The translations under genes and the position numbers were made by a program. From assembly GCF_000003815.2 (NCBI RefSeq), contig NC_049993.1, positions 5,112,511 through 5,176,510 of the forward strand: 64,000 nucleotides of DNA, given 5' to 3'. The notes under the pieces were generated by a model, which ran no database searches, was not told the origin of the DNA, and saw only the letters and a program-made list of their open reading frames with translations. Each line of letters begins with the position of its first letter. Position 1 is the first letter of the stretch. Shown piece by piece: positions 4,734 through 49,020 of the stretch. This DNA is from Branchiostoma floridae. Lineage: Eukaryota; Chordata; Leptocardii; Amphioxiformes; Branchiostomatidae.

Positions 4734-4736
4734 TAA

Positions 4737-7251: not shown

Positions 7252-7254
7252 TTA

Positions 7255-7622
7255 GGCACGATCTACACACAGTTTTTCCCGATATCGGCGAGCCTACAAC
7301 CATTCGCCGACAGCTTTTTTTCATCGTCTAGATGGAACTGCTATATCGCCATTACGATATCGGGAAAATTTCTCCCGAAAGGTCCGGACCATTCGTACGA
7401 AAGCTTAGCAGGGTCCCCGATAGCTTAGCAGGGGTCCCCGACAGCTTCCGCGCGCGTGTAGATGTGTCCCGACTTCGGGAAGGCTCATTAGCATACAACG
7501 CGGGCTCATTAGGCTATATAGCTGTTTATGACTGCAAGCGCCACGGGTGTCCCGCGGCCAGCGTTCCAGATCCCTCCCGACACATCCACCGATATCGGTA
7601 AAAACTGTGTATAGATTGGGCC
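7255..7622. mobile_element. Harbinger-like MITE, copy 1 of the GATATCGG family
   Basis: The left end is GGCACGATCTACACACAG and the right end is the inverse of GGCCCAATCTATACACAG. A TTA target duplication lies at 7252-7254 and 7623-7625. The inverted repeat continues through CGATATCGG. The copy at 57624-57981 is close in sequence throughout. Compared with that copy, this one has an extra internal duplication of about 21 bp (AGCTTAGCAGGGGTCCCCGA repeated near 7404-7441). It has no transposase frame. Confidence 0.88.
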
Positions 7623-7826
7623 TTAGGAGGGAGACTATAGTGGTAGCAAATGATCAAAGAAAGAAGATCATCTAGGACGTTGCCTACTTCTGGTAAGAAC
7701 TGATAAATAAACAAGGAACTATGTAACCATTATGATAGTGTCTGTCAGTTGTCAAACTTGGGAGTCTATCACCAGTTCAATGACAGAGGTATGAAAATAG
7801 AAATCTAGGTTTGGAATCATAACCAC

Positions 7827-7922
7827 CTTGTCCCCTAGCCGCGGGCGACTGTAGGTCTATCGCTATGGTTGAGAGCATAGCGATAGATAGACCTACAGTC
7901 GCCCGCGGCTACTTGTCCCCTA
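7827..7922. repeat. hairpin of about 74 bp flanked by an 11-bp direct repeat
   Basis: The arms at 7838-7868 and 7876-7911 are complementary over about 30 bp. The only interruption is an extra ATAG in the right arm, and the loop is about 7 nt (GTTGAGA). CTTGTCCCCTA flanks the hairpin on both sides, at 7827-7837 and 7912-7922. A target duplication around a nearly loop-free foldback points to a very small inserted element. No coding. Confidence 0.75.
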
Positions 7923-10788
7923 CTTTTCTTGGATTGGAACAGCCCTCTGATACTGGTTAAGCTCCTTGGTAAGATTATGGTCAAAAGGGAAAGTTCAGAA
8001 GAAATATGTGAAGAGGGTTCTTTGCATGATTTTGACCCAGTCTCAGCTGTCATTGCTCACTTTATAACCCAAACAAATGTGTGTTAAACAGGAAGGGTGC
8101 ACTGCTTGCAAACATGTTTAGTACCACTTGACTGCATCTCACCTCAGTTCAAGGATAACAGTGCTTGAAATAGACTGCCCTGGCCTGATTGTGTGTTTCG
8201 TTGTTTTGTATTTTCGATGATGGGTTTTCTCAAGGACTGGTTATGTTGTATGGCCCGAGGGATAATTTTCGCCTGGTTGACTCTTGTACAATATACGTAC
8301 ATCGTAGATGTTATGTATGCTGTTCACGTCACACCACCAGACCACCCAACATAAGGTCAGGACAGTTCACAAACAGAGTTGTAAATGCAGGGATTTCATA
8401 TGACATGTTTGCTTCAAGAGAAGAAGACTCAGGTCAAGTCCAAGTAAGTTTGTGACAAATGCATGTCTTATCTGGGGTACGAAAGTGCTTATGTCTAAGA
8501 TGTTGGGCAGATGTATTACAAACTGCCATAGGATAACCATTGCTGTTTCGTTTCTGATTTATTGTATCCATTTTACTGAATTTGCTCAACACTTTTAACA
8601 GTCTTCTTTTGAGTAACTGGCTTTCAAAGATAAAACAAGATTATTTCTTTGCACACTACTGAAATGTGCTTATACTATAACAGATAGGATTCTCTCCTGA
8701 CCACCACCATGGCTCAGTTGGTACATGCCAGTTTAGACAACCCCTAGGGGTCACCACGAGTTGGTAGAGGTTGGAATGTGGTCTATGTAACTATGTTTAC
8801 TTGTGCGACCCTTCGCTCAGATGCGGAATTCCGCATAGCCTGGACAGTGGTATTTGCATGGAAAGCATTTCGATGAATGGACTGTGTTGTTTCTTGTGTT
8901 TTACTTTGTTTTTGAATTTGTCCTTGAAACCTTTGCTTTGCTTGTTTAGCCCAAGCCAACAGTTTCAAACTCACTGGGTTCCAATTATAGCTGAGGCCTG
9001 CTGATATAGCATAGGCCTATATTGCTAGATTCACAGTGCTTCAAGGGCATTGGTAATGTTTCATTAGCCTACAGATTACAGATAGCACTTTTCAATTGTC
9101 CCCTACCTGAAATCCCGAAAAATTGCATTTATAGTTTAATAAGATACATTTCCTAACCGTTTGAATCACATGTCACGTGTTCAGGAAATTAGTCTGTGAC
9201 AAAGGTATAGCTGAACGTGTCTCTTTGGCTACACTGATGGTGTAAATGTATACTTTCATCTAGAGTTTCCTTTGGGTGATTAATAAGAGGTAAAGGTTAT
9301 GTTTTTCTTTCATCCTACACATTCCTTCTAAATCTATCTTTACAGCTGTGGATCGAATGTTTTTCCTTCATGAATTTCTACCCAAGCATATTTTACCTAT
9401 GTAATTGGCACAAGTTATTGTCAATGTGTCTTTTACTTGCCATTGATTATCTCTTGTGCGCAATGATTTTAGGCAAAAACGTTTCTATTTGATACTTCTT
9501 GAAACCATATGGAATTAATGCATAATTTGTGAGGAGGGAGGACGGAGAAATCAGGTCAATATTTTGACATGACAAAATAAACAGAACTGTTTTCTTCTGA
9601 AAATTCCCTGGATGCTCCATGTCAATCAAATTTCTCAATAATATTGTTTTTCTGTCAGTATCCCTGGTTCTTCTTTTTATCATAAAAATCCTTAAATCAG
9701 AACGAACAACTTGAAAGTTCATCCGTGTTGTTTGGCGTCATTTTGGATCAAACTTGAACTACAATTTCGAACATTGACATTGGACTTATCCAACTTTACT
9801 ACTGTTCAGCTCCAGTCTTTGTCAAGGAGTGAGCAACCATTAAGCAGTTGGATTGCATTTGATCCAATGGGAGAAAATTTCTATATCTGATCACTGAGTG
9901 ACCTGGTTTGAAAAAGGATGGAGACACACAGTCACACAGTCAGCATCTTTTACAAGGAAAATCTCCTGATAGATTGAAACCCTAGAAACCTGTAAAGTCT
10001 AGTATTTCAGTGGGCGGACTACCCCCTCCCCAGTTGCTTAGATATAAAGATAAACTATTGGATCATTTGGCATACCTTGATGAATCAATTAGAGTTTAGT
10101 CCCCAGAGCCAAGAGGGCCCCTCCCTAATGTAATCTGACCATCCTGGGGGAGTGAAAATCACCAATACCTGCTAAAAGTTTCCAAACTAATTTCTGCAAA
10201 TCTATTTGTTCAGTCTTTCCCCTACACACATTGGGCTTGACACAGGATCAGTGGTCAAAGCTCGGTTTTCCACAGTGTGTGCAGGTCCTGTTTTCTTTGT
10301 GTTCTCAATGTGTGGACATTTGTGTGGAAGGTGGCTGCCCTTGTTTGTTTTCTAATTAGCATGAATTAGCAGATGAGGTGTGAAAAACATTAATCTAATT
10401 TGTCACTTTTTGTGAGTTGATGTGTCCAGATTTCAGAGAGGACTTCTTTGAGGTAATAATCTGACCAAAAGGTAGATGGAAGTGATGCTGATTGTTTCAA
10501 AAGCAGAATTTGTGCTCTAGTCTATCTGGTAGTATAGTATGAACGCTCTTTATTTTAGAAACTTAACGTTAAGATGTACGTTATAAGTTACCCCCCCCCC
10601 CCCTGCTTTATGGATGATGTGATGTATACAATATACAGGAAACCATTAAGAACAATTACTACACCCATCAATCTCTATGTAGACTCACTTTCGTCATAGC
10701 TTTTCCCAAGCGACTTCTAAAATGATTGGTATGTGATACCTAAAGCTTTTTAAGAGGCATGTAACAAATTTACAGAGGTGTGCCTGTA
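7923..10788. other. no gene seen; short poly-C run
   Basis: AT-rich sequence with a homopolymer C tract near 10592. Open frames are short and without domains. Confidence 0.45.
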
Positions 10789-11294: not shown

Positions 11295-14200
11295 GCACTG
11301 AATTTAGTTCTTGAAGTCAAGTCTGAATACACAATGTTTTACCACAGTGTGCTACCACACAATATTCCCATGAGTCCTCAGTGCAGCTGTTAATGTAGTG
11401 ACCACAAGTGCTCCTGCCTGGGTACAAAACACTTTTATGGGGGAGGAGGGGTATACTTCGCAGTATTACTGTACCAGATGGAGGGAAATGAATCAAGCCT
11501 TCACATAAAACATTAACGTCAATTTGTACATTTGTCCGTTTTCTGTAGGCAGTTTATTCTACTTGTACAATGGACTCCTAAATCTATACCTTTGATATTT
11601 TTTTATAAGACACTTGGACAGATAATGTTACATCTCCCCTCCCCCCAGTAACCTAATGTAGATGTCAAATGAGGTCATAAATGTCATGGCTCGTGTAACA
11701 ACAGCCCCCCTCCCTATGGAGGGACAATGATTGGTCCCTAACTCCCAAACAGTAACTCCCACCACAGGTGTTTTATTAGTGTCTAGGGATTCACATGAAA
11801 GGCAAATGAAAATTCAAAAACCATAGATGCATGAACTGTAGTACCCATTCCTCAAGTTTCAATATGATATTTATGGACTACCAGTTTTATCAGAGTAGAT
11901 GAAACAACCTACGTGTTAAAACGACAGGATAGTAGTTTATTATAGGAATCGGTCAGGTAGCGTAGGGCATATGAACTGATGGATGGACAGTAAAATTGTG
12001 ATTTGTGTGCACTGAGTCAGTTCACTTTTTATTTCATCTTTTCTTCATTATACCCCTTGTTTGCCACATGAGAAATCTGTTTCATATTTGATTGAATATG
12101 CCTTTATCATCTGCATAATGCATCAATAACAGCTGTTGCCAGAGATGAAGTAGCTACCTACTTTTATTATATATCAGGAATAAACTCAGAAGAATTACCT
12201 ATATTGGAAAATTGAACTATAAAGTTGCGGTCCTCTATCAGTGCAGTTCATACTCATACATGTACCTTAGAAACAAAGAAGAGAAGAGAAAGAAGTCACT
12301 TGTATAATGCAACAGCCCAATGAACTGACAGACTAAGAACACATCTAAAGAGAATCATAGCATTTTTCATAGTATAAATTTTTGAGAAGTGTTTTCATGT
12401 TGTATGTCAGCAGCTGTTGTCTTTGAGGTTCTTTTGGCACTGTTTTATCCTGCTGGGGTGCCATCCCTGTGCCAAGTGTTTTCTGTGTTAGGTCCCCATG
12501 TGGTCTGTGGCTTTTTCATGGTTATTTAGAGGCCAATTGCACAGGTGCTGGCCACAACTGCCTCAACATGTGCAGGTTTTCCCACTGCTGTGGGTTTCTA
12601 AGATGTCCCAAAGGTGGACAGAGTAGCCTGTCCAACTTGGGAGCAATCTGTTTTGGCAGGGCTCAAAATATCTAACTGCAAGGTGCAATATTGAGGTTAA
12701 TAGACTAGTGCTCATCTATCATAAGCTTACACTAAAAAATGACAAAACTTTGGGGAAGCTGAAGTTTTGTAGGTGAAAACATCCAACATTTAAGTTTTAT
12801 GAACTACCATTCAGTCAAGGTTAAGAAATATATGCATGTGTATCAAATAATTATATGTTTCTGTCCATTTGAGAGGCACCTCACTAGATTTTCATATTGT
12901 GCAATATTGGATCATTGGCGACAATTTCACTAAATTATAAGTAGTAATTCAGGGAAACCTGGAATATTGAAGAGATATTAAAGATGATTTCGAGCCCTGC
13001 CTTACTTTGTATGTAGACCAGCACACCTATGTTTGGACTCCCTCCAAGAAGGAGAAAGGCTTAAGATTATCAGGAAATTGTCTGGAAGGCTGCGCTTAGC
13101 AGGAAATTGATTTTCTCTTTAATTCCATTTCTGGATTGCCTGGGCAGAGCTCTAATCTAACATGGGAGGTATAGAAAATTTCTATTAGATTTTGTCAACA
13201 AAATCGGAATGATTTGTATTCTATGTTAGCATGACTTAGTATAAAAGTTTACCTCAAGCTATTTTGCATGCACCCCTCATGCCATATATTATACATAACT
13301 ATCAATTTCGTCAGACTTTCATAACAGCTACGTCGTATAAATCTAACAATTGTTGGTGTTTTATGAGCAAAGGGGTAAAGCACTACCATGAAAGTGTTTC
13401 TGGTATGTGCTGTGTGTCTGGCACATTTTTCATGGGGTGGTTCTGTCCTATAACTCTTCATCTGTGCCAGGTTATGCCGTATTTATAATTCCATTAGAGC
13501 AGGGGATGGTAGAAAGAGTGATGCACTTGTCAGGTAAAGTTGTGTGTAAGGAGGCTTAGCTTTATACTATTAGTCAGTCTGAAAAAAAAAATTGCTAGTA
13601 ATAACCTGTCAAATCCTGTTCATTTCTAAGCCTTTGAGTAAAAGTAGAATGCGATGTAAAGTACTCAAGACTAGACTTGTATCTAGAACTGTGTAGCGTC
13701 TGCTCTGGAATATGGAAGGATGTAAACCAGCTAGGAAAATAACCAGAAGTTACTGCATTTGTTTGCAATGGTTACATAGAAGTCTAGCTTCTATTATGTA
13801 GAGAAGGAGATGTCTTGGTCCGAATGTTTTTGTTTACATGTAAGTGACGTATCAGGAAGAACCACAGCCCAAGGATGTCCCAGTAGCATCCTGAAATCAT
13901 GCAAAGAGGTAAACCAAAGTTTCATTTAGGAGTTAGAGACTCTTCTGACAGAATCGTTCCGAAGTACTTCCCATCATAATCATCTCATGCACAGATTCAT
14001 TACTCTCCAAGCAGAGGTTAGGGAGAGGACAATGTTACAGTATTGTCAAGAAGTGGATCCCAATCAGAAGAAAGGTTATGACTTGGAAAAAGGTAGTGAT
14101 CTTCTCTTCCCTCTTTTGAAAGGAGTTTGAAGACTGTATCTTGAGATTTTGCTTGTGATAGTAATGTTCGTAGAAGGTGCATTGCTGTGCTATTGTGTCC

Positions 14201-23158: not shown

Positions 23159-26100
23159 ATTTGTCTCGGAGCCGTTCCCCCAAACGAGAGGGTTTCTGGT
23201 CTGCGCTGTCCCAACTGTCGCCAACAACGGTACGCAAGTTCGGCTGGAAGAAACCGGCTACGAACCGTTCACAGTCCGTGGAAGAAGAGAACCGGGCAAA
23301 CATCGGTACTGACAGCGATGAGAGCCCCAAAATGGCGCAACGAAACCACGCCCTGGTGCCAGAAATAGCGCTCACGCCTGAGCAGAAACTGTCATCTCTA
23401 CAAAATAAAGGGAAAGTGGTCGCCAAATACCATCTGGACAGTACTAGTACTAGTACCAGTGACAACGGAAGCACAACAAGAGGGGGAGGGGTGGGTAGCG
23501 TGTTCACCCGAACCCGCCTGTACCGCTCGTTTAACCGGGACCGCTCAAACAATGACAGAACTATGGAAAAAGTCCCCAACGGCGACCTTGCTGGCCGAGG
23601 TGTAGACTTGGGGAGCTACAAGAAATGTAAATCGGACGATGGGAACAAGGGGGGGCTGTGTCCCGTTTCAGGGATCCTGGCCATAGAACTGTACAGCTTG
23701 AAGGGTATGAAGGTGTTTAAAAAGAGCTCTAAGGACTTGTACTGTGTGATCGAGGTGGATGGAGCTCCGCGGGCGCGCACCGTGGTCCGGGACGGGGAGC
23801 AAGAGGTGGTGTGGAACGAGAAGTTTGCTCTAGAACTCAACGATGCGTACCAGATCTGCTTCAACTTCTACAACTGGGACAACATCCGCCGCCACAAGGT
23901 CAACTGCGCGGGCACCCTGAACCTGTCCCACCTCACCAGACAGGCCAACGAGAAAATCGCGCTCAAGATGGATCCCAGAGGGACCATGTACGTGACTCTG
24001 ACCCTTGACCCCAACATGGAGGACGGTGTCCATTCCCTGAACCCCTCCCCTGGCCTAGGCAGACTGTTCGGCATGGACCTGGATAGGGTTGTGGAGGAGG
24101 AGGGAGGGGGGATCCACATTCCTCTCGTCATCAAGAAGTGTGTCAGCGAGGTGGAGGACAGAGGCTTGAGTGTGGTTGGCATTTACAGGTATGTCGATGT
24201 TGCTTTTCTATTCAGTATATAGTAGAGTGGACTCATTCCTCAGCTAACCAATGTCTATCGTACCAATTCATCCCTCAGTAAGACATTTACAACTTTCATT
24301 CAGGCTTGCTTTTTACTTAAGGTAATCACATCTAACTTTTCAAAATAGCTTTTCAGTGCACTAAAATTTGAGCATTTTTCAGCCTTCCTTTTCTACCAAT
24401 CTATCCATGTTCTCCTTCACCAATTTGTGCCTTTATTAATGCAACAAAACCCCAATGTTCTGCCAATACCGATGTGTCTTTCTGTCCTCCTCTCCAGACT
24501 CTGTGGTTCGGCCTACAGAAAGAAGGACCTACGGGACGAGTTTGAGATCGACAGCATTCGAACAGACATCTCGGCAGACAAGTACCCTGACATTAACGTC
24601 ATAACAGGTAAACACTGATTACTGTACTTGTCAGTGGATAGTCTACTGATTTATGTAAGATGGCGTGTTCTCTTTATTTCTGTCATGTCACTAAGCAGGG
24701 ATCGAAATACTTTTTTTTTGCTACATGCGAAATTGCAAGTTGGCAAAAATTTTGCGTGCAATTAGAAAAATTTACATGCAAAATACAACTAGGCGGCGAT
24801 CGCGACGTGGATCGCTAGCTTGAACCTGCGAATTTTTATTACATCTAGTGAAGTTATACCGGAGAGAATTACCAGCAAAAACAAGGAAGGAAGAAGACGT
24901 CCATACGTCGTTCTGTCTAAGAGTAGGGCGTCTAATTCCTGAGAGTATCTTTTACGGCCAGGTATTTTCAACATGCAAGATTGCAAGTTCAGAATATTTT
25001 TACGTGCAAATCTCGAAAATTATGTGCAAATTGCAAGTTAAGTATGTGTATTTCGAACCCTGCTAAGTCTTGTAGAGTCCAATTTTGACATTATAACTTT
25101 GCTATCTTCCTGCAGGTGTGCTGAAGGATTTCTTACGCGAGTTACCTGAGCCCCTCTTCTCCCCCGCCCTGTCAGACATCGTCTGTGCCAAACCCTGTGA
25201 CAAGGAGCCTGAAGAGATGCTGCAATGCCTGGGTGCTGTTCAGAAGGTCGGTACCAACATCTGTGTACAGAGAACTGTAAACCTTTACAGAAGCAACAAA
25301 AGTCAGTGTTAGGGTCTCTGAACCTGCACTATTAAGTCTTTTAGATTATCCCTTCCTGGTATACCCGAGGCAAGATTTGGACTAAAATCATCTTTCAATC
25401 CATAAGCCAAAGAGACATATTCTTTGTTGCTCCAAAATTGAATTTTGCTGAAATTGAATTTTGCCATCGACATAAATGGCTTTCTTTGTTTGATCTTTTT
25501 CTATCAGAAGGGATCAATTTTGCTGATATAGAGATTACCACAAAGCTAGTGAAAACTGACCAATGGGAAGCTGCCGTTTTTAGTGATTGGCAGATGTGTC
25601 ATCCAGTAAGTACCTGCAGGTTGTTAGAAGGTCCATTAACCACCTCCTGGTGATTAATGGTCCCAATAAACACCAGCTGGTGGTTTAGCTTACTGGTGTG
25701 TTATTTGATGGTTGCAGAAGCTCAGTTCGGTAGGAAAATTCAAGTGCCTAGTCTTAATAGGCTCATGGTGCCTTTTTCAAGTTTTGGTACAATGTACTCT
25801 CGAAACAGATGTTAGGCTCTGACTGTTTTTTGACGTTTTTTTTAGGCATTTTCATTGGGCTTTCTATTTTTTTATGTGACCAAACGTGAGACATTAAGAA
25901 AATGGTACAAAATAGAAAGCCCTATAAAAATGCCAAAACGCCAAAAAACAGCCGGAGCCTAACCCCTGCTTGTAAAGTAGTACAATGTACTTGAAAATCA
26001 CACTTGAGTCACACTCTCTCACTCAAACATGCTCGAAACTCACCATGATTACTGTCTTTAAAATCACCTGTTGGAATTGCAAGATAGAGTCCCATTGCTT

Positions 26101-29100
26101 ATCAGTTGATTCCAGGTGCACGTAACGTTAGGTGTTTCAGCCCTTCGTGAGTGTGTATATGGGAGGATAGTTTCTGGCCATAAGTTTCCACTCTCCTTGG
26201 CTCAGGGTCAGCACCCCTCTTCCCCCTCAAGTCTGATAAGGCATTCTCCAAATGCTCCTATCACCCAATCAAGCTCCTCCTGATTGTAGACATGTGGACT
26301 CAGGCCTGGGTCCAATTCACCCCTCCCCCATCTCTCATATGGTTACCTTTAACTTAAAAACTCTTGCATCAGAAACTTGGGTTTAAAATCTTTCTGTCAA
26401 ATCTGTGTGATTTTTCAATACATTAAAGAAATCGATATGTTTCAATTCAATAAGTTTGCATATTAAGTAGTAATTAGTAGAAGTTCAAAATATCATCAGA
26501 CAATGAATTTAAGATGGTCTAAGTGTTTGTGAAAACTTCATGAAGTCTTTGGAAAACATTTATCTTTTTGGCACTGGGCCCAAAACAGGTTCTTATTATG
26601 TTGTTATCAGTAACTGAAGAGAAGGCATTAGATGGTACTGTAAATGCAGAAATGTTCGCGGTGGATTAATGTTCGCGGTTTTCGCGGCGGCCGCTTCATC
26701 GCGAATTTAAAACCACCGCGAACATTTTTCCATAACAGTAAGAGACTACAGTCAGGGCTCGAAATACCACCTGCATATGCAGGTTAGTGCAGGTAAAATT
26801 GGAGCTGTGCAGGTATTTCTGTTGTCTACCTGCACCTAACCTGCACTGGTCCATGTACTGGGTTTCATACATAAATGTCCTATATATATATGTGATGTAG
26901 GTGTGTATGGATTGTTATTCGCTCCATTGATAAAGTATGAAAGAAAAAATAGCACTGCATGGTTCCTAAACAATTTTAGTGTGATTCATAATTCTTAAGT
27001 TCAGAGTGGTGCAGGTAAAATTTGTCTGGTACAGGTGATTTTCAATGTTACCTGCACCAGCGCAGGTATGCAGAAAAAAGTATTTTGAGCCCTGACAGTG
27101 CATGGTGCTACCGCGAAATTAAAACCACCGCGAAAAGTCTATTTTCCCGCTACCGCGAAATTAAATCCCCGCGAACTTAAATGCATTTACAGTATATCTG
27201 ACCGTTAAACTGGTTCCTCACACCTTTTGGAAAGAAGAGATTCAAAACAAAACTGATGCACAACATATGAGCATGATAAGGGAATATAGTGTACGTTTCT
27301 GAAACTTAAGTGAAATACTGACTTGGAGACTAGACCAGAAATTGCTGAATGAAGAAAGTCTACAATGTTTCATACCTGTCTGTAAAGCTGGCAACCTTAC
27401 TGACACCTCTACCAAATGAAATCACTTACTCTGCCTCAAAGTACACTTGACGGACATTTTAACACGACCTTTAATAAGAACCAGCTGGTTCAAGGTCAAA
27501 AGCCCTCCCCCCTACTGTGATAGATTTGGGGTTAGGTGAAGGTGAGTTTGCAGTTCCAGATAGCTTAATGAGGTTTATTGGGGAGGCCTATCTAAAATTG
27601 ATGGTCTCTAAGCTGTTGTATTAGAGTTGTGTCTATCTTACTTTAGTGGGTTAGGAGTCACAGTGGTCATTTTGATTAAAGAAGACATACATGTACATTG
27701 ATTGAAGTTTCTAAATGTGCCAGCGTCATAATGTGTCACATATTATATGATTGAGAATTTCAAGACAATGTTAGAAGCAGGCATAGAAACGTTGCATATT
27801 TCATCATTCTGATATGTCGTCTTCCAATTTCCGGTGTTGTATTGCTGAATTGATATAACTGGAAACACATTTTGAGGTCTGGCATTTGAACTTGAAGGTT
27901 GGCCTTGGTGGGAGTGGCATCCTTGGAAGGCATAATTTTAGCCTTGGTGGTAGGTCCATGCGTCACATCCTGTAGGAACATAGGAGGAAATGATGATCGG
28001 TATTTTCATAGAAAGTATGAAATATTCTCTGTGTTTTGACCTCCCAGTCAAATATCATACAGTGTGTGTGCCAATACAATCACTGGAAACTGATATAAAA
28101 AAAGTTTGTGAAGATTGATCCATGAAGACGAAGGCACCATTCAGTAATCAAAAGAAGCTACAGGATTTGATAATGCTAACAATGCTTGAAGCTGTAACTT
28201 CATGACAGTCTAACTCTTTATCAACTTCCTATGTAGTAAATCTGACATCTTGCCTTACAGTTAACCCTTGGCTACCTGCTCGACCACCTGAAACGGGTTG
28301 CGGCCAACTCTTCAGTCAACAAAATGGACTACAACAACCTGGCTGTGTGCTTCGGCCCTGTGCTGTGCTCCCCTCCCCAGGGGTCGGATGTGGATGGTGC
28401 ACAGGGAGCCCTTCTCGCTGCCATAGACTTCAGAAAGCACATCGCAGCGCTGCAGACACTGCTGGAGTTGTGGCCTGCAGATAGAGGTGAGTACTGGTAC
28501 AGGAAGGACTCCTAGTGAGAGGTGGCAGTACTGCAGAACCTGCTGAATACATCACTTCCCCAAGCCTTTTTATGTGGAGCGATTGAGTAGCACTTGGCAC
28601 CATGGGACTCTTGGACTTGAAGCGTGCAGTTTTAATTACTGGTACAGGAAGGCCTCCTAGCACAGTACAGTAGTACTGCAGAGACTACCTGTTAGACTCT
28701 TCAAGCATTTCCGATTTCACCAACCTTTCATCTGAAAGTGTGAGGACCACGTCACATCACATATAGGTTTTGGCCCATCTGGTTTACATTAGCTCTCTAG
28801 TTTTTTCCTAATTTTACTAAGGAAAAATTCACTCCCTTTTCAATCTTTGTTTCATTTTTTTGTAGATCCAAATGCAGACAAAGACCATGAGAATGTGAAC
28901 GAGGATGGAGAGGACAAAGACGAGCCCAACAACAACGACCTTCCTGAGTCGGACTCGACCCTGCTGTACAGCCGTCTCCGTGGCAACACGAGTTCAAGTG
29001 AGGACAGCCGTCCCGAGGCAGATCGTACCGACAGCGACACGAGCCAGCGGTCGCACGAGCCCAGCCCACGACTGGGACGAGACGGAAGTCCGCGTACAGG

Positions 29101-33846: not shown

Positions 33847-35840
33847 CACAGTTCAAACAACAGAAATACATATTCCTGTAGAACATCTAATCGATTACAC
33901 AAAACTGCACAGATATATCATAATATGCATACATTGAAAGCATCTTTACATGAAATACATCTGGCGTTATTTGATAAAAGCTAGTACAATGTATCTATAA
34001 GCAGAACGTAAAGTTCTCATGAATGAATTATAATAATGACACATTGTGCTCACTTTCCATCGGACTTGAGCAGAGATCAGAGATACCAATTTCTGTCACA
34101 AAACATAACAGTATCGATATACATGTATCTTATCCTTCATTTGATTGGTTCAAAGCCAGTTTGTTCTAGTCAACACTCGTTGGAAGTATGAAATGAAAGA
34201 AGAATCTATAGATCTCCTACCATATCAACTTTTTAACATTACATTCAATCTGGGGTCCTATTTTCGCAACAATTCTCTAAAATGATTTCAAACCATTTGT
34301 TCCACCTTTGCAAATCCTGCAGCAAAGAATACAAATGACACGCTAGTGTCTGATGCGCAAGGCTACAGGAGTGACAACTTGTAGATACCCAACATGTCCT
34401 AATTCATGTTGATCACTCCCTGACTTCCAGAGAAATGTTATAATCTATTACATGTATCATAGAACCCGATGAACAGCCAAGAAAAAGGCTAATTTTTTTA
34501 TAGAAAAATCGGATAAAGTTTCCTTAGTTAATTCGCCAGGAGATCAAATCGGCCTGAGGCTCCAAGGGGTGAAAGATCGTGAAGTTTTCTGAGTGACGGG
34601 CAGGCTTCTCTGAGTCTCTCAACCCATATAAGCAGAAGAATAGTTGAGTAAAAAAGCCAGAGTTGTTAAAGAATATCAACATATCTCCTTAACAGACTCA
34701 TTCCGCACAAGATTTGATGTGCACATGAATGTAGGTGGCGCTTCCACGGGCAGACATGGTGTTACAGGGGCTCGTCGGGCAGGCCCTAAAATTGATTCTT
34801 TCCATGTCAGCTAGTATCTTAAAGGTCATTCTAAATGTATGTAAAAATGTCTTGACCACGTTGGGTGAGTTTTCACAGGCTGTAAGCCTAATCTTTTGCA
34901 TATTTCAGCATTTTACAAGTTGGAACGACATACCCCAATTGAGCCCGAGCTGCAGTACCACTCCCGACCGCGTCCTCAAAAGTGGCTAAAACGACCGCCA
35001 AATTGCCAAATTTCCGGCTTTTCGGCAATGGGGAAATCGTGAAAGGCTCTGAAAGGGGTTTCAATGTTTTAGGCATATTTGACTTTGTTTTCGAAAATAC
35101 GACCATTTGAAGTTATGAATGACAATATTTAAGACATTTTGCAAATATAACCATGCGATATTCGGTCATAGATGACACATTTCCTTCACAATTTCCAAAT
35201 AGAAGTAGTCGAGTGTACATGTCCTATAAGCTCACGTTCTGAATGGCTATCACAGCCAAATTTCAATTCTATTTTGTCAACCAATAACTTGAATAAGACA
35301 ATGAATAAATGCAGTGGTGATTCTGACTGTTGATCAATAGATTTTTCTTACAAACTTCTGTAAGGCGTGTAGATTACTTGTGGATGTAATATACTATACA
35401 GCCATAAACCTGAGCGGTTGGAGAGTCGGGGAGACTTTGATGTGGACACTAGGCTTAACGAAAAAGACCTAGTGTAGATTTTGGCTACCTACATGTACCG
35501 AAGAAGAAACAATTACAACTGATTTAGTGTTCGTGCTACGTGTGTGCATCATGTTTTTTTTCTTCATATTAACCTTCGTTATGTTTTGCGTGTGTTCTCA
35601 TCAGTTTTGTAGGTTGTCTAGAGGACGTTCTCCATCAAATTAAGCCAGACTGACCTTCTATGCTACTAAATTTGCAAAGGCGGAAAATAATTTGAAAATA
35701 CTCCTTTTGCTAATATTAAAACAGGACTATAAATAGACTATAAAATGAAGGTAGATGTAATGCAAAAATGACACGATAACAGAGGATCTATATTGATTTC
35801 CAATATGATACAGAGTATTTTTGAAGAAAAATGACGTTTG
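33847..35840. repeat. segmental direct duplication, copy 1
   Basis: About 2 kb is matched in order by 35990-37850. Anchors include ACTTCCAGAGAAATGTTATA, TTTGATGTGCACATGAATGT, GATCTATATTGATTTCCAAT and GCTAATATTAAAACAGGACT. Divergence is modest with small indels, so the event is not very old. About 150 bp separates the copies. Confidence 0.9.
34698..34879 (-). CDS. candidate terminal exon of an unrecognised Cys-containing protein
   Basis: Minus strand: an acceptor (GGCTTACAG) is followed by an open frame CENSPNVVKTFLHTFRMTFK to IHVHIKSCAE and a TGA stop. It gives about 60 codons with four cysteines and a plausible amino-acid composition. A GTATGT donor lies about 55 nt upstream, but the resulting intron would be very short. 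No domain is recognised. The duplicate at 36714-36894 has lost one base. It may be a real last exon, a pseudogene, or chance. Confidence 0.3.
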
Positions 35841-35989
35841 GGTAAGCCAATGATCTCAGACCAGCTATATACGATGAAACGTATCATCTGACTGAGTAAT
35901 TTGCGCTTAAGACCTGTTTTACTAGCAACACTTTTTCTAAAGGAAAAATTACTACATGTGTCATGAATGGCACACAAAGTTAAACTTTG

Positions 35990-37850
35990 CACAGTCCAAA
36001 CAGCAGAAAATACACATTCCTGTAGAACAGCTGGTTGATTACACAAAACTACACAGACATATCATAATATATGATAAATGTGTCTTATCTTTAACATGAA
36101 ATAAGCAGAATACAAGTCTACAAAGTTCTCATGGATGAATTATGATAATGACAAATTGTACTCACTTTCTGTCAGACTCAACTACCTATTTCTGTCACAA
36201 AGCATAACATCTATCATCTTAACCGTCATTTAATTGGATCAAAAAGTTTGTTCCAGTCAACACTTGTTGGAAATATGAAAAGATTCTACATGCAGGTAAC
36301 ATTACTTTCCTATCATATCAACTTTTTTAATATTTCATTCATTCTGTGCTCCCGTTTTCGTAACAACTAATAAGTAATAAGTATAACATGCCCTATCTAA
36401 TGTGGATCACTCCCTGACTTCCAGAGAAATGTTATAATCTATTTCATATATTATAAAACCCGATGAAGAACCAAGAAGAAGGCTAAATTTGTTATAGAAA
36501 AATCGGATAACTTTTCCTTTGTTTCTTCGCCAGGAGCTCATAACATATCGGCCTGGGGCTCCAAGCAGATGTTGGGGTGAAAGATCTCGATGTTTTCTGA
36601 GTGACGACCGGGCTTCTCTGAGTCTCTTACCCCATATAAGTAGGCGGATAGTTGAGTAAAAAGGAGAAATTGTTAAAAAAATAAATAAATATCAACATAT
36701 ATCCTTTACACACTCATTCCGCACAAGATTTGATGTGCACATGAATGTAGGTGGCGCTTTCACGGGCATACATGGTGTTACATGGGCTCGTCGGGCAGGC
36801 CCTAAAATTGATTCTTTCCATGTCAGCTAGTATCTTAAAGGTCATTCTAAATGTATGTAAAAATGTCTTGACCACGTTGGGTGAATTTCGCAGGCTGTAA
36901 GCCTAATCTCTTCCATATTTCCGCATTTTACAAGTTGGGACGACATACCCCAATAGAGCCCGAGCTGCAGTACCACTCCCGACCGCGTCCTCAAAAGTGG
37001 CTAAAACGACCGCCCAATTGCCAAATTTCCGCCTATTCGGGAATGGGGAAATCGTGAAAGGCTCTCAAAGGGGTTTCAATGTTTTAGGCATATTTGACGT
37101 TGTTTTCGAAAATACGACCATTTAAAGTTATGAATGACAATATTTAAGACATTTTGCAAATTTAACCATGCGATATTCGGTCATAGATGACACATTTCCT
37201 TCACAATTTCCAAATAGAAGTAGTCGAGTGTACATGTACTATAATCTCACGTTCTGAAGGGCTATCACAGCCAAATTTCAATTCTATTTTGTGAACTAAT
37301 AAGACAATGAACAAATACCGTGGTGATTCTGGCTGTTTGTTGATCAATAGATGCAATTTTTCTTACAAACTTCTGTAAGGCGTGTAGATTACTTGTGGAC
37401 GTAATATACTATATAGTCATAAACCCGAGCGGTTGGAGAGTCGGAGAGACTTTGATTTGGACACTGAAAAGTGTACATTTTGGCTACCTACATGTACCAG
37501 GTAGGTTGAAAAAGGGACCTCCTTGCACCGACGAAGAAACAATTACAGCTGATTTAGTGTTCGTACTACGTACGACGTGTGTTTATCATTTTTTTTAATA
37601 TTCATATTAACCTTCGTTCTTTTTTGCGTGTGTTCTCATCATCAGTTTTGTAGGTTGTCCAGAGGACGCTACGCTACTGAATTTGCAAAGGCGGAAAATA
37701 ATTTGAAAATACTCCTTTTGCTAATATTAAAACAGGACTATAAATAGACTATAAAATGAAGTTATTTGTGCAAAAATAACATGATATTAGAGGATCTATA
37801 TTGATTTCCAATATGATATAGATAGACTGTTTTTGAAGAAAAACGTGACA
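35990..37850. repeat. segmental direct duplication, copy 2
   Basis: Second copy of the 33847-35840 unit, with the same anchor order. It ends around GATCTATATTGATTTCCAAT and a TTTTTGAAGAAAAA shared by both copies. It differs by several small indels. Confidence 0.9.
36714..36894 (-). pseudogene. frameshifted duplicate of the 34698-34879 candidate exon
   Basis: It aligns base for base with the first copy except for a few substitutions and one missing base in the stretch GAAATTCACCC (copy 1 reads GAAAACTCACCC). In the same phase the frame stops 18 codons in. If copy 1 is coding, this one is broken; if neither is coding, the indel is neutral. Confidence 0.3.
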
Positions 37851-41800: not shown

Positions 41801-44800
41801 CTCTGTACAGGATGGGGGGGGGGGGGGGGGGGGNNNNNNNNNNNNNNNNNNNNNNNNNNNNNNNNNNNNNNNNNNNNNNNNNNNNNNNNNNNNNNNNNNN
41901 NNNNNNNNNNNNNNNNNNNNNNNNNNNNNNNNNTTATCATTACCTGAGAATCTCTCTGGTGACATTGTTCACTGTAGGCTGCAGGACACAGGCTGTGGGC
42001 TGTACAGTGAGGCAAGGTAAAGAATGGACCACACATTAAAAACATAGGCATATATGAACACACCAGTCCTTGGTGCTGAACACCATCCACACACTGGTTT
42101 GAACACCTGTCCTTGGTGCAGAACACTATCCACACACAGGTTAACATATTACCTGTCCTTGGTACTGAACACCATCCACACACAGGTTAACACACCTATC
42201 CTTTGTGTTGAACACCATCCACAAACACAGGTTAACACACCTGTCCTTGGTGCTGAACACTATCCACACACAGGTTAACACACCTGTCCTTGGTGCGGAA
42301 CACCATCCACACACAGGTTAACACACCTGTCCTTGGTGCTGAACACCATCCACACACAGGTTAACACACCTGTCCTTGGTGCTGAACACCATATGCACAC
42401 GTTTTTATCACATTTCGAGTTACATTTTGACACAGCAGCCACATTTCACAATATGTCCTAATGTGTTCATGATAACCACACAGAAAACATCTCACCAGTG
42501 CCCGTGAACAGATAAGTGTTTTCATGTCCTCTGTACCCATGTAAGGCCTGTTCAGGGTGACAGTTTCCACCATGTCCAGTACTTCCTGCTCCAGACAAGA
42601 AGAGTGAAGTGTCCACAGAGCACATAAAGCAGCGGGTGACAAGGGAACAGCAGCTGTGAACAAAACACAATAATGTCATGTGCACTATAGAGTCCATTCC
42701 AAGTCACCATGAGGGGTTTTAGGTGATATTTGTAATAAGTCTGAATTATTTTGATTAAAAGAATATCTAAGCCACAATAATTAAATTCTTTTTAAAAAAT
42801 TGACTAAGAAAATACTCATCTATTTCAATTCCTTTGAATATTTTAGAAACATTTTGAAAGTAACTGTACAAAAATATCTTTATTTAGAATAATTGCGAAA
42901 CCTCTGTGCGATTATTTCACATTTACAAATATTTACAAATATTTGTAAACTTTGCCAAATGGTAAAATTAGTTTATTGCCCCCATAAAAGTAAGCCCTAT
43001 TGTTGCATCTGTAATTTTTAGATTTCACAGCTGGGCACTGGTGAATCCTTTGTGGTGGGCCATTGTTGCATGGCACCCAACCATACTTTGCAAGGATGTG
43101 TGAATTGCTATCTTCCCAGCCCACTGAACCATTTACAAAAAATGGTAGAAAATGGTAAATAATGGTAAAATGCTGTTATCATTATTTAGAAACCATTAGA
43201 AGTATCTAATTCCACTCCATGAATATTTCCAAAGTTTTACAGGACCAGGGAAATATTTATAAAGTTGAAACAGTGTGAAAAATATTTCTGAAGTATCAAA
43301 TGTCCTAGACATATAATTACAAAACTTTAAAATCAATTCTAAACAATGGCAACAAACATCCGCATGGTGTCTTGGAATGGACCCTATGCCGACACACAAA
43401 CCAAGAGCTACAAACAATAAAAATAGATAAAGATAATGTCATGTTTAGAATTGAAATGAAGATACCTTCAGTTCCATAGGCAGCCATTACAACCCCAAAA
43501 TACAGCCATTTTTTTCATTAGGCCAAGACTTAACCAAACTGATATCATTAGACTCCATTATTATCTTGTTCACTTATTGTATGAACAGACACAACATCCT
43601 TGCCAATGGAAATAACTATAAAACTCACTAATTTTACCTGTGACTAGTTTATTTGAGTACACTTGTTGCTGTGTCCTTGCCACAGATTCCAGAAACAAAT
43701 CTGACAGTTCCTCCCCTCCTGCCTTTCCTTCTAATCCTGCCAGGAGCAGCTTCTCCACCACTGCTGAAGCAGCAGGCAGGGTGACCAGAGGGAGACACAG
43801 TTCTGACAACTGATGTAAAGTACAGGGCTGTGCTTGTCTGAAGTAAAAGCAGTTCAAAATATCACTTGAGATTAGGAATTGGATAATCTTGATTCAAGTG
43901 TATGATTTTACTTGTTATTGCTGAGTAAACAGTAAACATTCAGCACTACATTTCTGAAATAACTTTTGTAGATAAGTAGACAGTCAACTTTGAAGCTAAT
44001 AAAGATTTAAAACATTTGACTGTTACCTTGCTTTTAACCTTCTGTCCTGCTGTAGCTGATCTAAGTCTTCAGATAGAGCATGTATAGCCTGTGGGTGATG
44101 ACAAAGTAGAAAATTAGGGTTCTTGAAAACACTATGTTGGGTATTTACGGTGTTGCCTTGAAACATCATCATCATCATCAGTTGGCTGCAGAGCCCTGAA
44201 ACATATTTCTTCATTTCTACTATCAAGAATAAACAATAACGACTTTTCACAACCAGGCTTTTTGCCAGAATTCAATACATTATTACAACTCTAGTTCTAG
44301 TGGGTGACTAGCATGAATTTTACACAAACCTTTTCCAGGGCTAGTTTATGTTGGTCAGAAGGCAGGTAACCCATGGCTTCTCTCACACTATTGCCTGATG
44401 GTCCTGTTATCACGTGTCTCAACATTTTCTGAAATGGCAACATTTTGATATTATGGTAAATTATCAATATTTGCAAATTCAATACACATCACACTACCAA
44501 AGAGAATAGAGCACATAACTAGTGCTATATTAAAGGTTATATCAATAATGTTTATGTCTAAATCAGACATTGATATTAAAATTTTTCCTAAGATTTAGAA
44601 GGTGAAGAAGAATGTGCATTCACAATGTCAAGCTAACCATTTACTTGTTATGTAACCTTAACAGAAGACATGGACATGTTAAACTTCAGAAGTGGTTGAT
44701 TACTACTCTCGAAGCAGAGGTTTGACTCTTGCTGTTTTTTGACGCCTCTTTGGACATTTTTATCGGCCTTTCAGTTTTGTCCAGTTTTTTTCTGTCCTCC

Positions 44801-46766
44801 AGCTATGAATGGACAAGGCAAAATAGAACGGACTTAAAAAATGTCTAAAAACACTTTTAAGAAAACAGCAGTATCCAAACCTCTTTATTGATTACACCAT
44901 ACAAAAGCAATGCAGACCACTACTATCATTCCTTTTACCTGGGCCCAGCCGGCTGCCCTCCTCTCTATGTCCTCCTGTGGACAGTCTGTACACAGGGCTG
45001 TCAGACAGGACTGGAGAACAGTGCAGGTATCACCTGAGGGAGAGGGTGGGAGGGGGGGAGCATTGGTTACATCCCTCAAGGGAAGCAAGCATTTTCTATT
45101 GACAATCTGACTGTCATACATGATTAACTTATAATTCTGAGTGACAAAATTGAAGAATTATATTGTGCAAGTAAACATCACAATATATTTCAATAACAGA
45201 CAGCTGATTTTTCTATAATGAAATCTGCACAAGAAAATATTCTAAGGCACAATACAACACAGTAACCCAGGGCTCTAGCCAGCGTCCGTTTTTCCGTCAA
45301 TTGACGGAAATTTGCTGCCTCTGAAAATTTTTTAAACCAATCCGTCAACCATGACGGACAAAAAATCCTTGGTGGAAGCTACAGGCGGCTTGGGGACGCC
45401 ATCCACGGCCGTAAAAGCCACACACTGTTTGTTTTGCTATTGTTATGATTGTTGACAATGTGTTTCGGCGCCCTTTTGCATACGACAATGTCATTAAAAC
45501 CCGTTTTTCAAGGTCACAATTGCAACATTTACTGCTATGTAGTGTCATAGGAGAAATTAATTTTCGCGGTTTTCACGACGATTGGAATTGGCTGACGGAA
45601 AAAAAATCGAGCTGGCTAGAGCCCTGCAGTAACCACAGCAACATCTTACCACATGCTAAAACAGCAGGGTTGTGGCACAGTCTTCCTAGGAACTGTCCAA
45701 TGTTGGGCAGATGTCTCATAATAGCTGCTGGCCTCTCCTGTGTTGAAGTGAAAAAATGTTATGGTATAACTTATACAAAGAATGTATCTGCAAATTTTGA
45801 TTTGACTTTGATGACTTAATGTTTACCAGAGAGTACCCTAAAACATAGGTTTGACAGGAAGTACAATGTATCTGTTTACGTTTTCATTGACATGTATAAT
45901 TATCCTTTAGTGTGAAATACTATAGCTGATCAATATGATATCCCTGTATGTGGGTGTAGATAGAAAGTACATGTTCAGACATGCAACTTTTTCTGAAAAT
46001 TAGAAACACTTTAAAGGGACATAATGTAGAAATTTGGCGCCAAAATTTCAAATGTTCTGAACTTAAAAGTCACCAGTCAGATTGACATTTGTAACTTATT
46101 TCCAACATATCTGCATCATTTTATCACATTTCTAGCGCTAATTAACAACGCCAAAGTAAGCCACAACTAAATTCATTTACTTCCGGGTAGCCTACCGGAA
46201 GTAAGCCAGCCGTAGATTCCGAATCGACCGTTGCGGTCGCAGATCCTCGGAGCTTCGCGGGGACTTTCAACAAACTTCAATAACGATTTAAGCGAACCAC
46301 CGAACGCGTTCTAAAGCGCACTTTGGTTCGTCGGAGAGTTGGATAAAATGGCGGACAACTCAAGCGGCGGAGGGAAGTGCGCATATTTCAAGACATCCTC
46401 ACCTCACAACAAAGTCATATCAATACGTTGTAAATATTGCCATGCAGTGTAATAAGGTAGACTCAACTCATAATGTAGAAAAATGGCCGAAAACAGTAAC
46501 TTTACATTTTACATTATGTCCCTTTAATGACCTAGAATTTAGATGTTCATTTTAAGCAAAAAACTTCTTTTCATATTCATAAAACATAGGCTAGATATAA
46601 AAAGGATCACCCATGTTGTCATGGCAACATGAAGCCGCTTCAGAAAAGTGCCCAACTCTCCCAGACACGTGCAGGTGTCCTTCAGTCCCTCTGTGGAAAC
46701 AACACCCCCTGGCTCTCCCCAGGACTTGGCACGGTCCAGCCAGCCATCTAACTCTGCCCTGTCCAT
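38892..46766 (-). CDS. unrecognised 611-residue, Leu-rich helical protein, 14 exons
   Basis: Exons in transcript order: 46766-46611, 45737-45650, 45033-44939, 44428-44330, 44088-44027, 43837-43638, 42653-42496, 41978-41944, 41802-41703, 41525-41450, 41306-41168, 40563-40407, 39822-39622 and 39161-38892. Every junction is AG/GT. The joined length is 1836 nt and stays open to TAA. The start chosen is ATG in AACCATGG, four bases after an acceptor, so a 5' non-coding exon is implied. If that ATG is internal, more coding exons lie upstream. The product is Leu/Ala-rich amphipathic helices (LHQLSELCLPLVTLPAASAV, VIGQLLMLFLLHS) suggesting an ARM/HEAT-like fold, and ends in a coiled-coil-like tail (LNCRCDKLKHLMQELLKPS). 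There is no signal peptide or catalytic motif. I could not name it; the meiosis-inhibitor MEI1 family is one untested candidate. Introns hold four transposons, a minisatellite and an assembly gap. Confidence 0.8.
40635..40694 (-). pseudogene. partial duplicate of the 40407-40563 exon start
   Basis: Minus strand: CTGCAG followed by about 60 nt nearly identical to the first 20 codons of the exon at 40563-40407, including GTACAGTTTGGTTGGTGGTA. The similarity then breaks off at CAGCGAGTCTGTAG, and no donor follows. The acceptor was duplicated with it, so it could act as a decoy splice site. The downstream copy has the intact frame and donor. Confidence 0.65.
41814..41933. other. G20 homopolymer plus 100-N assembly gap
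   Basis: Twenty G bases run straight into exactly 100 N, a placeholder for unknown length. It lies inside the short intron between the exons ending at 41944 and 41802. On the gene's strand the run is poly-C and forms the pyrimidine tract before CATCCTGTACAG. No exon is lost, because the phases of the flanking exons agree (AG plus A). Confidence 0.95.
42056..42390. repeat. minisatellite, about 43-bp unit, about 8 copies
   Basis: Repeats of AACACACCTGTCCTTGGTGC followed by TGAACACCATCCACACACAGGTT, with single-base variants (CTATC, CAGAAC). The array lies in the intron 41979-42495 of the minus-strand gene. Confidence 0.93.
44704..44886. mobile_element. foldback MITE with TACTCTC ends, third member
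   Basis: It starts TACTCTCGAAGCAGAGG, with GCTGTTTTTTGACG as in the 25795 element. The right half carries the inverse (AACAGCAGTATCCAAACCTC). Flanks GTTGATTAC and ATTGATTAC match at 8 of 9 positions. It is in the intron just 52 nt from the exon boundary at 44939. Confidence 0.7.
45268..45626. mobile_element. hAT-like non-autonomous element, copy 2
   Basis: It has the same family and order as 441-804, with ends CAGGGCTCTAGCCAGC and GCTGGCTAGAGCCCTG. A perfect 8-bp duplication, CAGTAACC, lies at 45260-45267 and 45627-45634. It sits in the intron 45034-45649, only 23 nt from the exon edge at 45650 and so next to its donor. Confidence 0.9.
46011..46527. mobile_element. TTAA-target MITE (TTAAAGGGACATAATGTA ends)
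   Basis: Perfect 18-bp terminal inverted repeat TTAAAGGGACATAATGTA, including the TTAA that is presumably the target duplication. From memory, TTAAAGG ends with a TTAA target resemble the T2-type MITEs described in frogs. The interior has an internal palindrome (CTTCCGGGTAGCCTACCGGAAG) and AAAATGGCGG. It lies in the first coding-side intron of the minus-strand gene. Confidence 0.8.
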
Positions 46767-46936
46767 GGTTCTGTGGTGTAATGTAAGAAAACATAAGGAT
46801 CATCACTGCTGTAACAGATCCCTAGGATTCAGGCAACTAAATTAGTTCACATATATGCACTTCTACTGTACCATTGCCAAGGGAAAATCCCATCTTGTTT
46901 TGAACGTAACAGCTATATCTTTACAGATACGTATTT

Positions 46937-47555
46937 CAGGGGTGCCTAAGCATTTGCACGAACCCTATGAAATTCGTACGAATATTATGTGATACACACG
47001 AACCACTATGCGAAAACGCACGAATATTATGAAATTCGCACGAATCGCTATGCAAAAATGCGCGAATATTATGAAATTCGCACCAATCACTATGTGATTC
47101 ACACGAACCTTATGAGATTTGCACGATCCTTATGCAAAAACGGCGGCCGGGAGGAGGCATGATTTTGAGCGTTTCTACCCGTGATATTTATATTTCAAGG
47201 CATGGAATGGACATTTACCGTCGCAAAGATGTATTTGATAACCTGTGAGCTACTGTTTTGCTTCATTTCGGCTTAATTGTTACATCGTATTTTCCGTCGC
47301 CGCCGATCAAAGCGGCCTGCATCTTGAAAATCCCGCTCCGTCTGTCACGTGACCCCGGCAGTGGTTGCGCAATTTCGCATAAGGTTCGTGTGAATCACAT
47401 AGTGATTCGTGCGAATTTCATAATATTCGTGCGTTTTTCCATAGTGATTCGTGCGAATTTCATAATATTCGTGCGTTTTCGCATAGTGATTCGTGTGTAT
47501 CACATAATATTCGTACGAATTTCATAGGGTTCGTGCAAATGCTTAAGCACCCCTG
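46937..47555. mobile_element. element with about 200-bp inverted arms built from internal repeats
   Basis: The ends CAGGGGTGCCTAAGCATTTG and CAAATGCTTAAGCACCCCTG are near-exact inverses. Inversion continues about 200 bp through repeated units of CACGAATATTATGAAATTCG and CACGAATCACTATGCG. A unique centre of about 200 bp follows. Flanking 5-mers are TATTT and TGTTT (4 of 5). There is no transposase; an open frame at 47258-47527 is made of the repeats. Confidence 0.85.
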
Positions 47556-49020
47556 TGTTTAATATCTGAGTTTTACTCTACCCTAGCGTTACAACACAAA
47601 TAACGGTATGTGAATAATATGACATACAGAGAGTTTTAGAATCAATCTGTTATCTACTTAGTATAATGAGTCCATCATAAGCTGTATCATAATGATCTAG
47701 CGTTGTTAAACACATTTGAAAGACGAAATCAAAATCAAAGTACACTTACCCTTATCATCACCCCTTAGGCATCTGGAAACTGTGCCAATCAACCTTACAC
47801 ACACAATATTTTACATACATATATAAAGGGAGGGAGCAAGGTAGCCATCTTTTTGACATTACAAAATACGCGCGAAAATTGATGACCTTTGACCGATCGC
47901 AAGCATACGATGACAATACCGAACTTTGCTTTTATTGAGGTTAATTGATGTATCAAGATGACATAATATTCCAATTTTTCCACAAGATATTTGCTATAAA
48001 TAATCGAACAAACTATGCACGTAAGACTGATAAGAAATACAGCATAACGGTGATTCTTTCATAGCGCTTTGGTGCCATTTTTGAATTCGAAGCAGAAGAC
48101 CCGCCATATTGTTTTTTAGGGTACGAGTGTACAGTTTTCTACGGACTTTGAACCCAACTTTCCCAGAAAGTTAGGGGCGTTTCTACGAAGTCGCCACCTT
48201 GTACTCATCTAAACAGTAATAGGGGTGAGTGTTCCTCAATTTCTGTGGTGAATAATGGACGTTTGTTGACTAAAGACAACCTACAAACTTTTGTAAACTT
48301 CAGAGCTGGTGTACTCGCTGTATTTATGTGGACAACTCTGCTCAAGGCATAACGACCACTTCTCTTGGCTTAAAACCGTTACGAAGATGTACAAAGTAAC
48401 AGTTGTTGATCTGAATTTGAGCGAATTTCTACTTTATGTTGCTCTAAATTGTCCAATAATTTCTGTGAACCGTGTAACAGGCACGCAATATATGGATTGT
48501 AATGCTAATTAAACCCAAAATTTGCCGGTAGGCCGCTTTGATTTCACCATAGTTGCAAACTTGCACCCAGGTGTCAAATACGGAAATTAGGCCAAAATTA
48601 CACCTATTTTGTACGTGTCCAAAACCTTCACTGCAAAACCTTGCTCTAGTGCGTATCCCTGTACTTTGTTGACTCTGTGATTTACGTAAAGAACAACAAA
48701 GTCTGTACACAAAGGCCAATGGAAGTACTGTTTGGCACACGTGTACACATCACCAGGTATCAGGTATGTTTGTATATGGAGCAATATTGGTGGCCAGCTG
48801 AAAATGTGTACTAGTATGTGCATATTTGGCATAAAAAGTTCCTTGTTCTGAACTCATAATTTTATGGAAGTTGCCAAATACATACATACAAACTACACAT
48901 TGTTTTATTTATATGTATATTTTATTTAATGTTTGTGAAGGGTTATTAATTTAGTTAACATGGGGGTGGCATCTTCTGGGATACAATTTTTTTATTCCCC
49001 AAGGAACAAATACCTTACCT
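47556..49020. other. no coding exon supported; possible 5' region of the minus-strand gene
   Basis: CAATATGGCGGGTC on the minus strand near 48110 resembles a YY1-type promoter motif next to a start, and a GTAAGTG donor in the gene's direction lies near 47750. Either could belong to a 5' non-coding exon spliced to 46770, but nothing in the sequence proves it. Confidence 0.3.

Follow-up and report, generated by a model that had tools for sequence, protein, structure and literature searches.

A nested MITE with 5-bp target duplications in Branchiostoma floridae, very probably a non-autonomous hAT element with a fixed subterminal site array

In the window (the whole stretch of 64,000 nucleotides of Branchiostoma floridae DNA analysed here), a short non-coding element interrupts an older MITE (Table 1). 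There is strong reason to consider it a non-autonomous hAT MITE of a 5-bp lineage fitting the Repbase group hAT5, which entered the older MITE by cut-and-paste and was moved by a zinc-finger hAT transposase that reads an array of TGCA sites with 3-bp arms and prefers A/T at the target. Exact 5-bp target duplications, a common array of subterminal sites, an A/T preference outside the duplication and, in full-length relatives that share the start of the TIR, a protein with a hAT domain are directly observed. The link of the non-coding window element to hAT runs via its ends and not via a transposase of its own.

Table 1. Positions in the window of the nested element, its host MITE, its putative subterminal sites and a related element
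Feature	Position	Strand	Remarks
Subfamily D element, 367 bp	24696..25062	+	Exact duplication CTAAG; ends CAGGG(A/T)TCGAAATAC
Host MITE, TACTGTAAATGC family, split by the insertion	26636..27194	+	Begins TACTGTAAATGC, ends GCATTTACAGTA
ACAGT, left copy of the 5-bp target duplication	26748..26752	.	Empty sites in other host copies
342-bp non-coding element, subfamily B (arm GGT)	26753..27094	+	Consensus of 40 copies is 332 bp
Left TIR CAGGGCTCGAAATA	26753..26766	+	2,051+2,068 exact genome copies; reversed-pattern control 1+0
Palindromic pair of putative sites ACCTGCA-TA-TGCAGGT	26769..26784	.	TGCA at positions 20 and 26
Putative subterminal site TGCAGGT	26788..26794	+	TGCA at position 36
Putative subterminal site TGCAGGT	26808..26814	+	TGCA at position 56
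Putative subterminal site ACCTGCA	26828..26834	-	TGCA at position 79
Putative right-end site TGCAGGT	27010..27016	+	Position 82 from right end
Putative right-end site ACCTGCA	27050..27056	-	Position 39 from right end
Right TIR, CAGGGCTCAAAATA read inwards	27081..27094	-	One change
ACAGT, right copy of the 5-bp target duplication	27095..27099	.	

When the window was re-read, the boundaries that a previous sequence-only reading had given to the element and its host proved right. The occupied site reads ACAGT-CAGGGCTCG...GAGCCCTG-ACAGT. The host MITE copies near 51494 and 53735, in which that reading had placed the empty site, carry the uninterrupted AGACTACAGTGCATGG with a single ACAGT on the minus strand. 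All three host MITE copies of the window have TA at the start and TA at the end. In the 513-Mb assembly (431 contigs), AGACTACAGTGCATGG was counted 741+754 times and its reversed-pattern control 0+0 times, and in 362 kb of sequence examined four uninterrupted sites with one ACAGT were found, versus none of the tandem-ACAGT form ACAGTACAGT. Hence the observation named beforehand as fatal to the empty-site argument, a tandem ACAGTACAGT in unoccupied host copies, was not made as far as tested, and the single-ACAGT site is common. A 3-bp duplication with termini TCAGGG...CCCTGA was also considered and rejected: the window copy taken by itself would allow it, but a T in front of the element together with an A behind it is present in just 9 of 40 copies.

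The length of the duplication is a trait of the family. The best 40 of 2,168 first-look candidates were scored, and 39 copies were fetched with 300-bp flanks and examined along with the window copy; being the best-scoring, these copies under-represent old ones. They are short (321-350 bp in the 40 examined of 2,168 candidates), non-coding, numerous and similar in length and they carry TIRs, as expected of a MITE, with a median identity of subfamily B copies to the B consensus of 94.4%. The exact 5-bp duplication read at the window element recurs in 26 of the 40 copies, and the 14 without it include six with one mismatch at 5. An exact 8-bp duplication was found in none of the 40, and no exact match in any of them is longer than 5. 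The genome search and tabulation of duplication lengths proposed with the sequence-only reading thus returned a majority at 5 bp, and the outcome that would have spoken against it, most copies with 8-bp or no duplication, did not occur. When the left flank of one copy was paired with the right flank of another, a match of at least 5 arose in 7 of 1,560 pairings versus 26 of the 40 true pairs, and two of these seven should stem from the common flanks of loci L020 and L034. These two loci come from separate contigs and agree over 12 bp of flank at either end, which points to a duplicated segment or an assembly duplicate.

For a second sample, the terminal 14-mer was followed to its first 30 places on contig C1, and the window and five further fetched loci were added. 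Its 28 readable end pairs include 15 with an exact 5-bp duplication (the window element among them), one with 6 bp, one with 7 bp and none with 8 bp; the remaining 11 have no exact duplication, five of them showing one mismatch at 5. The exact 7-bp flanking repeat (L092:365-700) and the 6-bp repeat (L109:1200-1514) could reflect either rare stagger variation or chance.

A second CAGGG family of the same window served as a control. Its elements at 441-804 and 45268-45626, for which 8-bp duplications had been claimed, are indeed flanked by ATACAAAC and CAGTAACC, and in a sample of 20 copies chosen from 40 scored plus the two in the window the duplication is exact at 8 bp in 18 of 22, with one mismatch in three more and absent in one. 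This family resembles the 5-bp element in its CAGGGCTC start and in A/T at the third base outside the duplication, but differs in the 8-bp length and in its internal sequence. The counts in the two CAGGG families therefore indicate two lineages with different staggers side by side.

Target choice was read from 31 insertion sites: of the 40 copies, those whose 5-bp repeats differ by no more than one base were taken, and L034 was left out as a duplicate. On the left, A or T stands as the third base beyond the duplication in 31 of 31 sites (T 21, A 10), and on the right in 30 of 31 (A 16, T 14, G 1), together 61 of 62 flanks. This position was chosen after inspection of the first sample. At 14 further sites with an exact 5-bp duplication, 27 of 28 flanks carry A/T there (p = 2e-5, taking the A+T content of the flanks in the first sample). 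At 21 sites of the 8-bp family, 39 of 42 flanks have A/T as the third base outside, versus 22-24 of 42 for the first, second and fourth bases. According to excerpts of PMC2753552, Tol2 has the target TNA(C/G)TTATAA(G/C)TNA with a weak bias (46% at +/-3), and excerpts of PMC4825651 describe for Ds a weak 14-base palindrome resembling that of Tol2. Like both families here, Tol2 thus favours a base three positions outside the duplication on both sides, but it differs from the 5-bp family in its 8-bp duplication and in the weakness of its bias. The preference seems more pronounced here than in the account of Tol2, with the caveat that one was counted as A/T and the other as single bases. Because the same third-base preference is seen in the 5-bp family, the 8-bp family and Tol2, it appears to be a general hAT trait that is measured from the cut and independent of the stagger.

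The termini of the 5-bp family define at least four subfamilies: A (L078 type), B (the window element), C (L110 and L080) and D (24696-25062 and L106:1943-2312). TGCA lies at positions 20, 26, 36, 56 and 79 from one end and at 31, 39, 62 and 82 from the other in three sequences, namely the autonomous A copy, the C copy L110 and the consensus of the 40 B copies, hence nine sites stand at identical distances from the ends in three subfamilies. L080 departs from this, with a 4-base shift after position 36 on the left and a 1-base shift at the fourth right-end site. Subfamily D has sites at 28, 35, 55 and 78 and at 39, 62 and 82. Single copies, including the window copy (right-end sites 31 and 62 degenerate), have lost some sites. 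Genome-wide, TGCA stands at 20 and 26 in 971+966 of the 2,051+2,068 exact termini, and at 21 and 27 in 3+0. Two other sequences of the window have comparable termini: a 343-bp element at 12657-12999 has similar ends but lacks a target duplication and is poor in TGCA close to its termini, and a left terminus CAGGGCTCGAAATAGCACCT lies at 49579-49598, with no right end identified.

An array of this kind is reminiscent of Hermes, which, according to excerpts of PMC10368747, depends on rigidly placed subterminal repeats that its BED fingers read; repeats one and two make up a quasi-palindrome close to the tip, and cleavage is impaired when this pair is shifted by 1 bp. The palindromic pair at 17-32 and the exact distances would fit such a design. 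The excerpted description of Hermes matches the 5-bp family in its asymmetric ends, its palindromic first pair of short repeats near the tip and the importance of exact placement, but differs in the 8-bp duplications and in the motif AAGT (PMC10368747).

Elements bearing a transposase were found among the relatives. The hAT dimerisation domain has 33 matches in the genome, and 30 loci of about 3 kb each were cut out. Three of these (L051, L052 and L070) carry the terminus of the 5-bp family with at most one mismatch; L050, L062 and L068 show a 3-mismatch resemblance only. Two full-length subfamily A copies with the CAGGGCTCGAAAT terminus, L078:1531-5343 (3,813 bp, duplication ATATG) and L079:1504-5318 (3,815 bp, duplication TGACA), hold an open frame of 717-719 aa. 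Because they are near identical (99.8%) at different sites, recent movement of subfamily A is suggested. Dimer_Tnp_hAT is detected in both copies, the L078 protein matching it at 5e-10 in Pfam and zf-C17orf113 at 1.4e-9; in L078 a 175-aa frame lying upstream is a candidate first exon. In L080, a third copy with a gap of N, the two halves are 64% and 59% identical, and a hAT dimerisation domain and zf-C17orf113 are present across the two pieces. The terminus pair of this locus (1516-7944) is a probable subfamily C element, with no clean duplication and 810 N in the stretch. An autonomous-sized pair of termini spanning 3,665 bp on C1 (2726717-2730381) was rejected as a single element, its ends both being left-type and from different subfamilies. 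Comparison of the L078 protein with solved structures by phmmer gave nothing up to E = 1; Hermes structures are among those solved.

The A and C relatives thus have the C-terminal dimerisation domain of a hAT transposase and an N-terminal zinc finger that is putatively BED-like and DNA-binding. The usual, not universal, hAT trait of 8-bp duplication is absent (0 of 40 copies), and the 5-bp duplication of hAT5 is present in 26 of 40 copies and in both autonomous-size copies. According to excerpts of PMC12730594 and PMC9004415, hAT5 is an established Repbase group of hATs with 5-bp duplications; PMC12730594 credits it to Kapitonov and Jurka 2007 (Repbase Reports) and accepts 5-, 6- and 7-bp branches within hAT. 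Like the family here, hAT5 combines a hAT transposase with 5-bp duplications, and it is known from some invertebrates and fish (PMC9004415, excerpts). In a comparison of descriptions, those excerpts mention for hAT5 neither an array at fixed positions nor a coordinated change of the arms, nor an A/T preference. The family fits Repbase hAT5 and is provisionally filed there on its duplication and domain, not on a tree. Of the two placements that the sequence-only reading had offered, a different lineage or a 5-bp branch of hAT, the latter is supported by the full-length relatives, which join the same TIR start and 5-bp duplications to a hAT-domain protein. No paper combining C17orf113, hAT and transposase was found in the literature search. 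The 5-bp family is undescribed in the excerpts of PMC2836005, PMC12730594, PMC9004415, PMC6004678, PMC10368747, PMC2753552 and PMC4825651, which does not show that it is unpublished.

The expected autonomous copy was found in part: there are two 3.8-kb relatives of subfamily A with a hAT domain, and none of subfamily B. Among 31 transposase matches in the assembly (62 of 68 candidates scored), only two A copies and one C copy are both long and more than 55% identical. The others are short or distant, such as those on C19 (32%) and C14 (25%) or a 205-aa piece on C5 (48%), and no autonomous subfamily B copy was found among the 31, of which a minority was read with flanks. The closest transposase-bearing elements, A and C (the latter with a gap of N), carry arms other than those of B.

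Each TGCA is joined to a 3-bp arm in a fixed orientation: CCC at eight sites and CCT at one in L078, GGT at nine of nine sites in the B consensus, AGT at seven sites and TGT at two in the C copy L110, and mixed arms in D. The ends of A and B can be aligned over about 85 bp with no gap. They have in common all 36 bases of the TGCA cores and 27 of 28 bases of the TIRs, and the arms agree at 1 of 27 positions versus 52 of 82 (63%) for the spacers (Fisher p = 1.5e-8). A and C have 1 of 27 arm positions in common, and B and C 18 of 27. For C and D the sample is one or two copies apiece, and the majority of B ends were selected by their similarity to the window element. In total 132 distinct ends were examined, 50 left-type, 34 right-type and 48 neither. 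For the left ends, the arm at position 26 was the sole sorting criterion (7 A, 38 B and 2 C, with 3 other arms set aside), and the other left sites still present then have CCC in 22 of 24 cases for A and GGT in 132 of 139 for B. For the right ends it was the arm at site 39 (18 B, 7 A and 5 with AGT, with 4 other arms set aside). GGT follows in 38 of 43 cases for B; in A, site 31 reads CCT in 7 of 7 cases, and sites 62 and 82 read CCC in 10 of 10. The five ends with AGT are mixed, including two D ends and one B-like copy. The A and C transposases are identical at 25 of 52 positions in the finger, 174 of 237 in the core and 52 of 97 in the stretch between. The lower identity of the finger would fit a changed reading specificity, although the finger is not singled out.

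These data can be combined into a wider reading, in which the putative binding-site specificity of one 5-bp hAT clade changed coordinately at nine fixed positions, the TGCA cores being kept and the arms becoming GGT in B, CCC (once CCT) in A and mostly AGT in C, and in which hAT transposases would touch the target at a fixed point, three bases beyond each cut, at a stagger of 5 as well as of 8. This reading is put forward tentatively, with a chance somewhat below even. It is weakened, and a reading by common descent gains, through the mixed arms of C and D and through a finger that is not alone in changing fast.

For the window element, the preferred hAT5-like reading implies a mechanism in which the N-terminal zinc finger of a hAT transposase would bind the asymmetric subterminal TGCA-arm array at fixed distances from each terminus, reading the TGCA sites themselves. 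The transposase would then excise the element and join it across a 5-bp stagger, presumably set by the hAT transposase of the full-length relatives, with targets carrying A/T three bases outside each cut preferred. For subfamily B the mover would be a transposase recognising the GGT arm, which may now be absent from the assembly or may not have been found in it. Membership of another superfamily merely resembling the hAT relatives is very improbable. CMCT elements (Chapaev, Transib, CACTA) mostly have CA..TG termini and 2-5-bp duplications (PMC12730594, excerpts), and TDD-type Ginger2 elements have 5-bp duplications (PMC2836005, excerpts), but copies that agree with the window element in the first 13 bp of the TIR, in the positions of the sites and in having 5-bp duplications code for a protein with a hAT domain, and the gap-free alignment of A and B ends, spacers included, ties the window element to them. 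Both memberships were rejected on the hAT transposase of the relatives. No CMCT family appears up to E = 1 in the Pfam matches of the four pieces scanned, which are of the relatives' proteins, the window element being non-coding. ProtoRAG, a lancelet element with a 5-bp duplication, is not known to have termini like CAGGG.

Less clear-cut is which transposase moved subfamily B. No autonomous TGCA-GGT copy was found and therefore movement in trans by a relative is possible, B having no transposase of its own and being served by an A or C enzyme that tolerates the changed arm; this is given a chance of roughly one in three. The scarcity of long, similar transposase copies, limited to A and C, speaks for it, as do the TIR, spacing and target preference common to the subfamilies, and the arms shared by B and C leave C as a possible helper. 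However, A and B arms differ at 26 of 27 positions around unchanged TGCA cores, which suggests separate recognition. The median identity of B copies to their consensus means that the source may be extinct, and the piece on C5 (with one stop) and shorter pieces on C6 and C13 are candidate relics of it. Hence a transposase reading TGCA-GGT is most likely to have moved the window element. It is unlikely that the site positions reflect common descent only, with the arms altered by drift or gene conversion without function. In favour of descent, A and B ends are homologous with spacers still alike, the C and D arms are not uniform, and part of the uniformity of B is descent since most B ends were chosen by similarity to the window element. 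Against this, divergence in the arms goes far beyond that in the spacers and affects each of the nine sites, and the arms vary little within A or within B.

Hence the preferred reading is retained, of a 5-bp hAT lineage whose transposase would read a TGCA-arm array. Elements of hAT type with 5-bp duplications have been named since 2007 and barely described in the excerpted literature cited here. The B. floridae genome offers thousands of ends, two near-identical full-length copies and an adjacent 8-bp family, and the data separate the cut spacing (5 or 8 bp), the favoured outside base (same place) and the end motif (same positions, other letters), so that the co-evolution of transposase finger and transposon end becomes directly testable. 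If true, the coordinated arm change would be a natural record of transposon families splitting into non-cross-mobilising lineages under a rigid geometric constraint.

The window has other repeats as well. A tandem duplication of about 2 kb occupies 34391-37769, with matched stretches 79-97% identical between the copies, and a minisatellite with units of about 43 bp lies at 42057-42409. A fold-back element at 46924-47568 has inverted arms of 194 bp, 93% complementary and 257 bp apart, with CAGGGGTGC at 46937 and its inverse ending at 47555.
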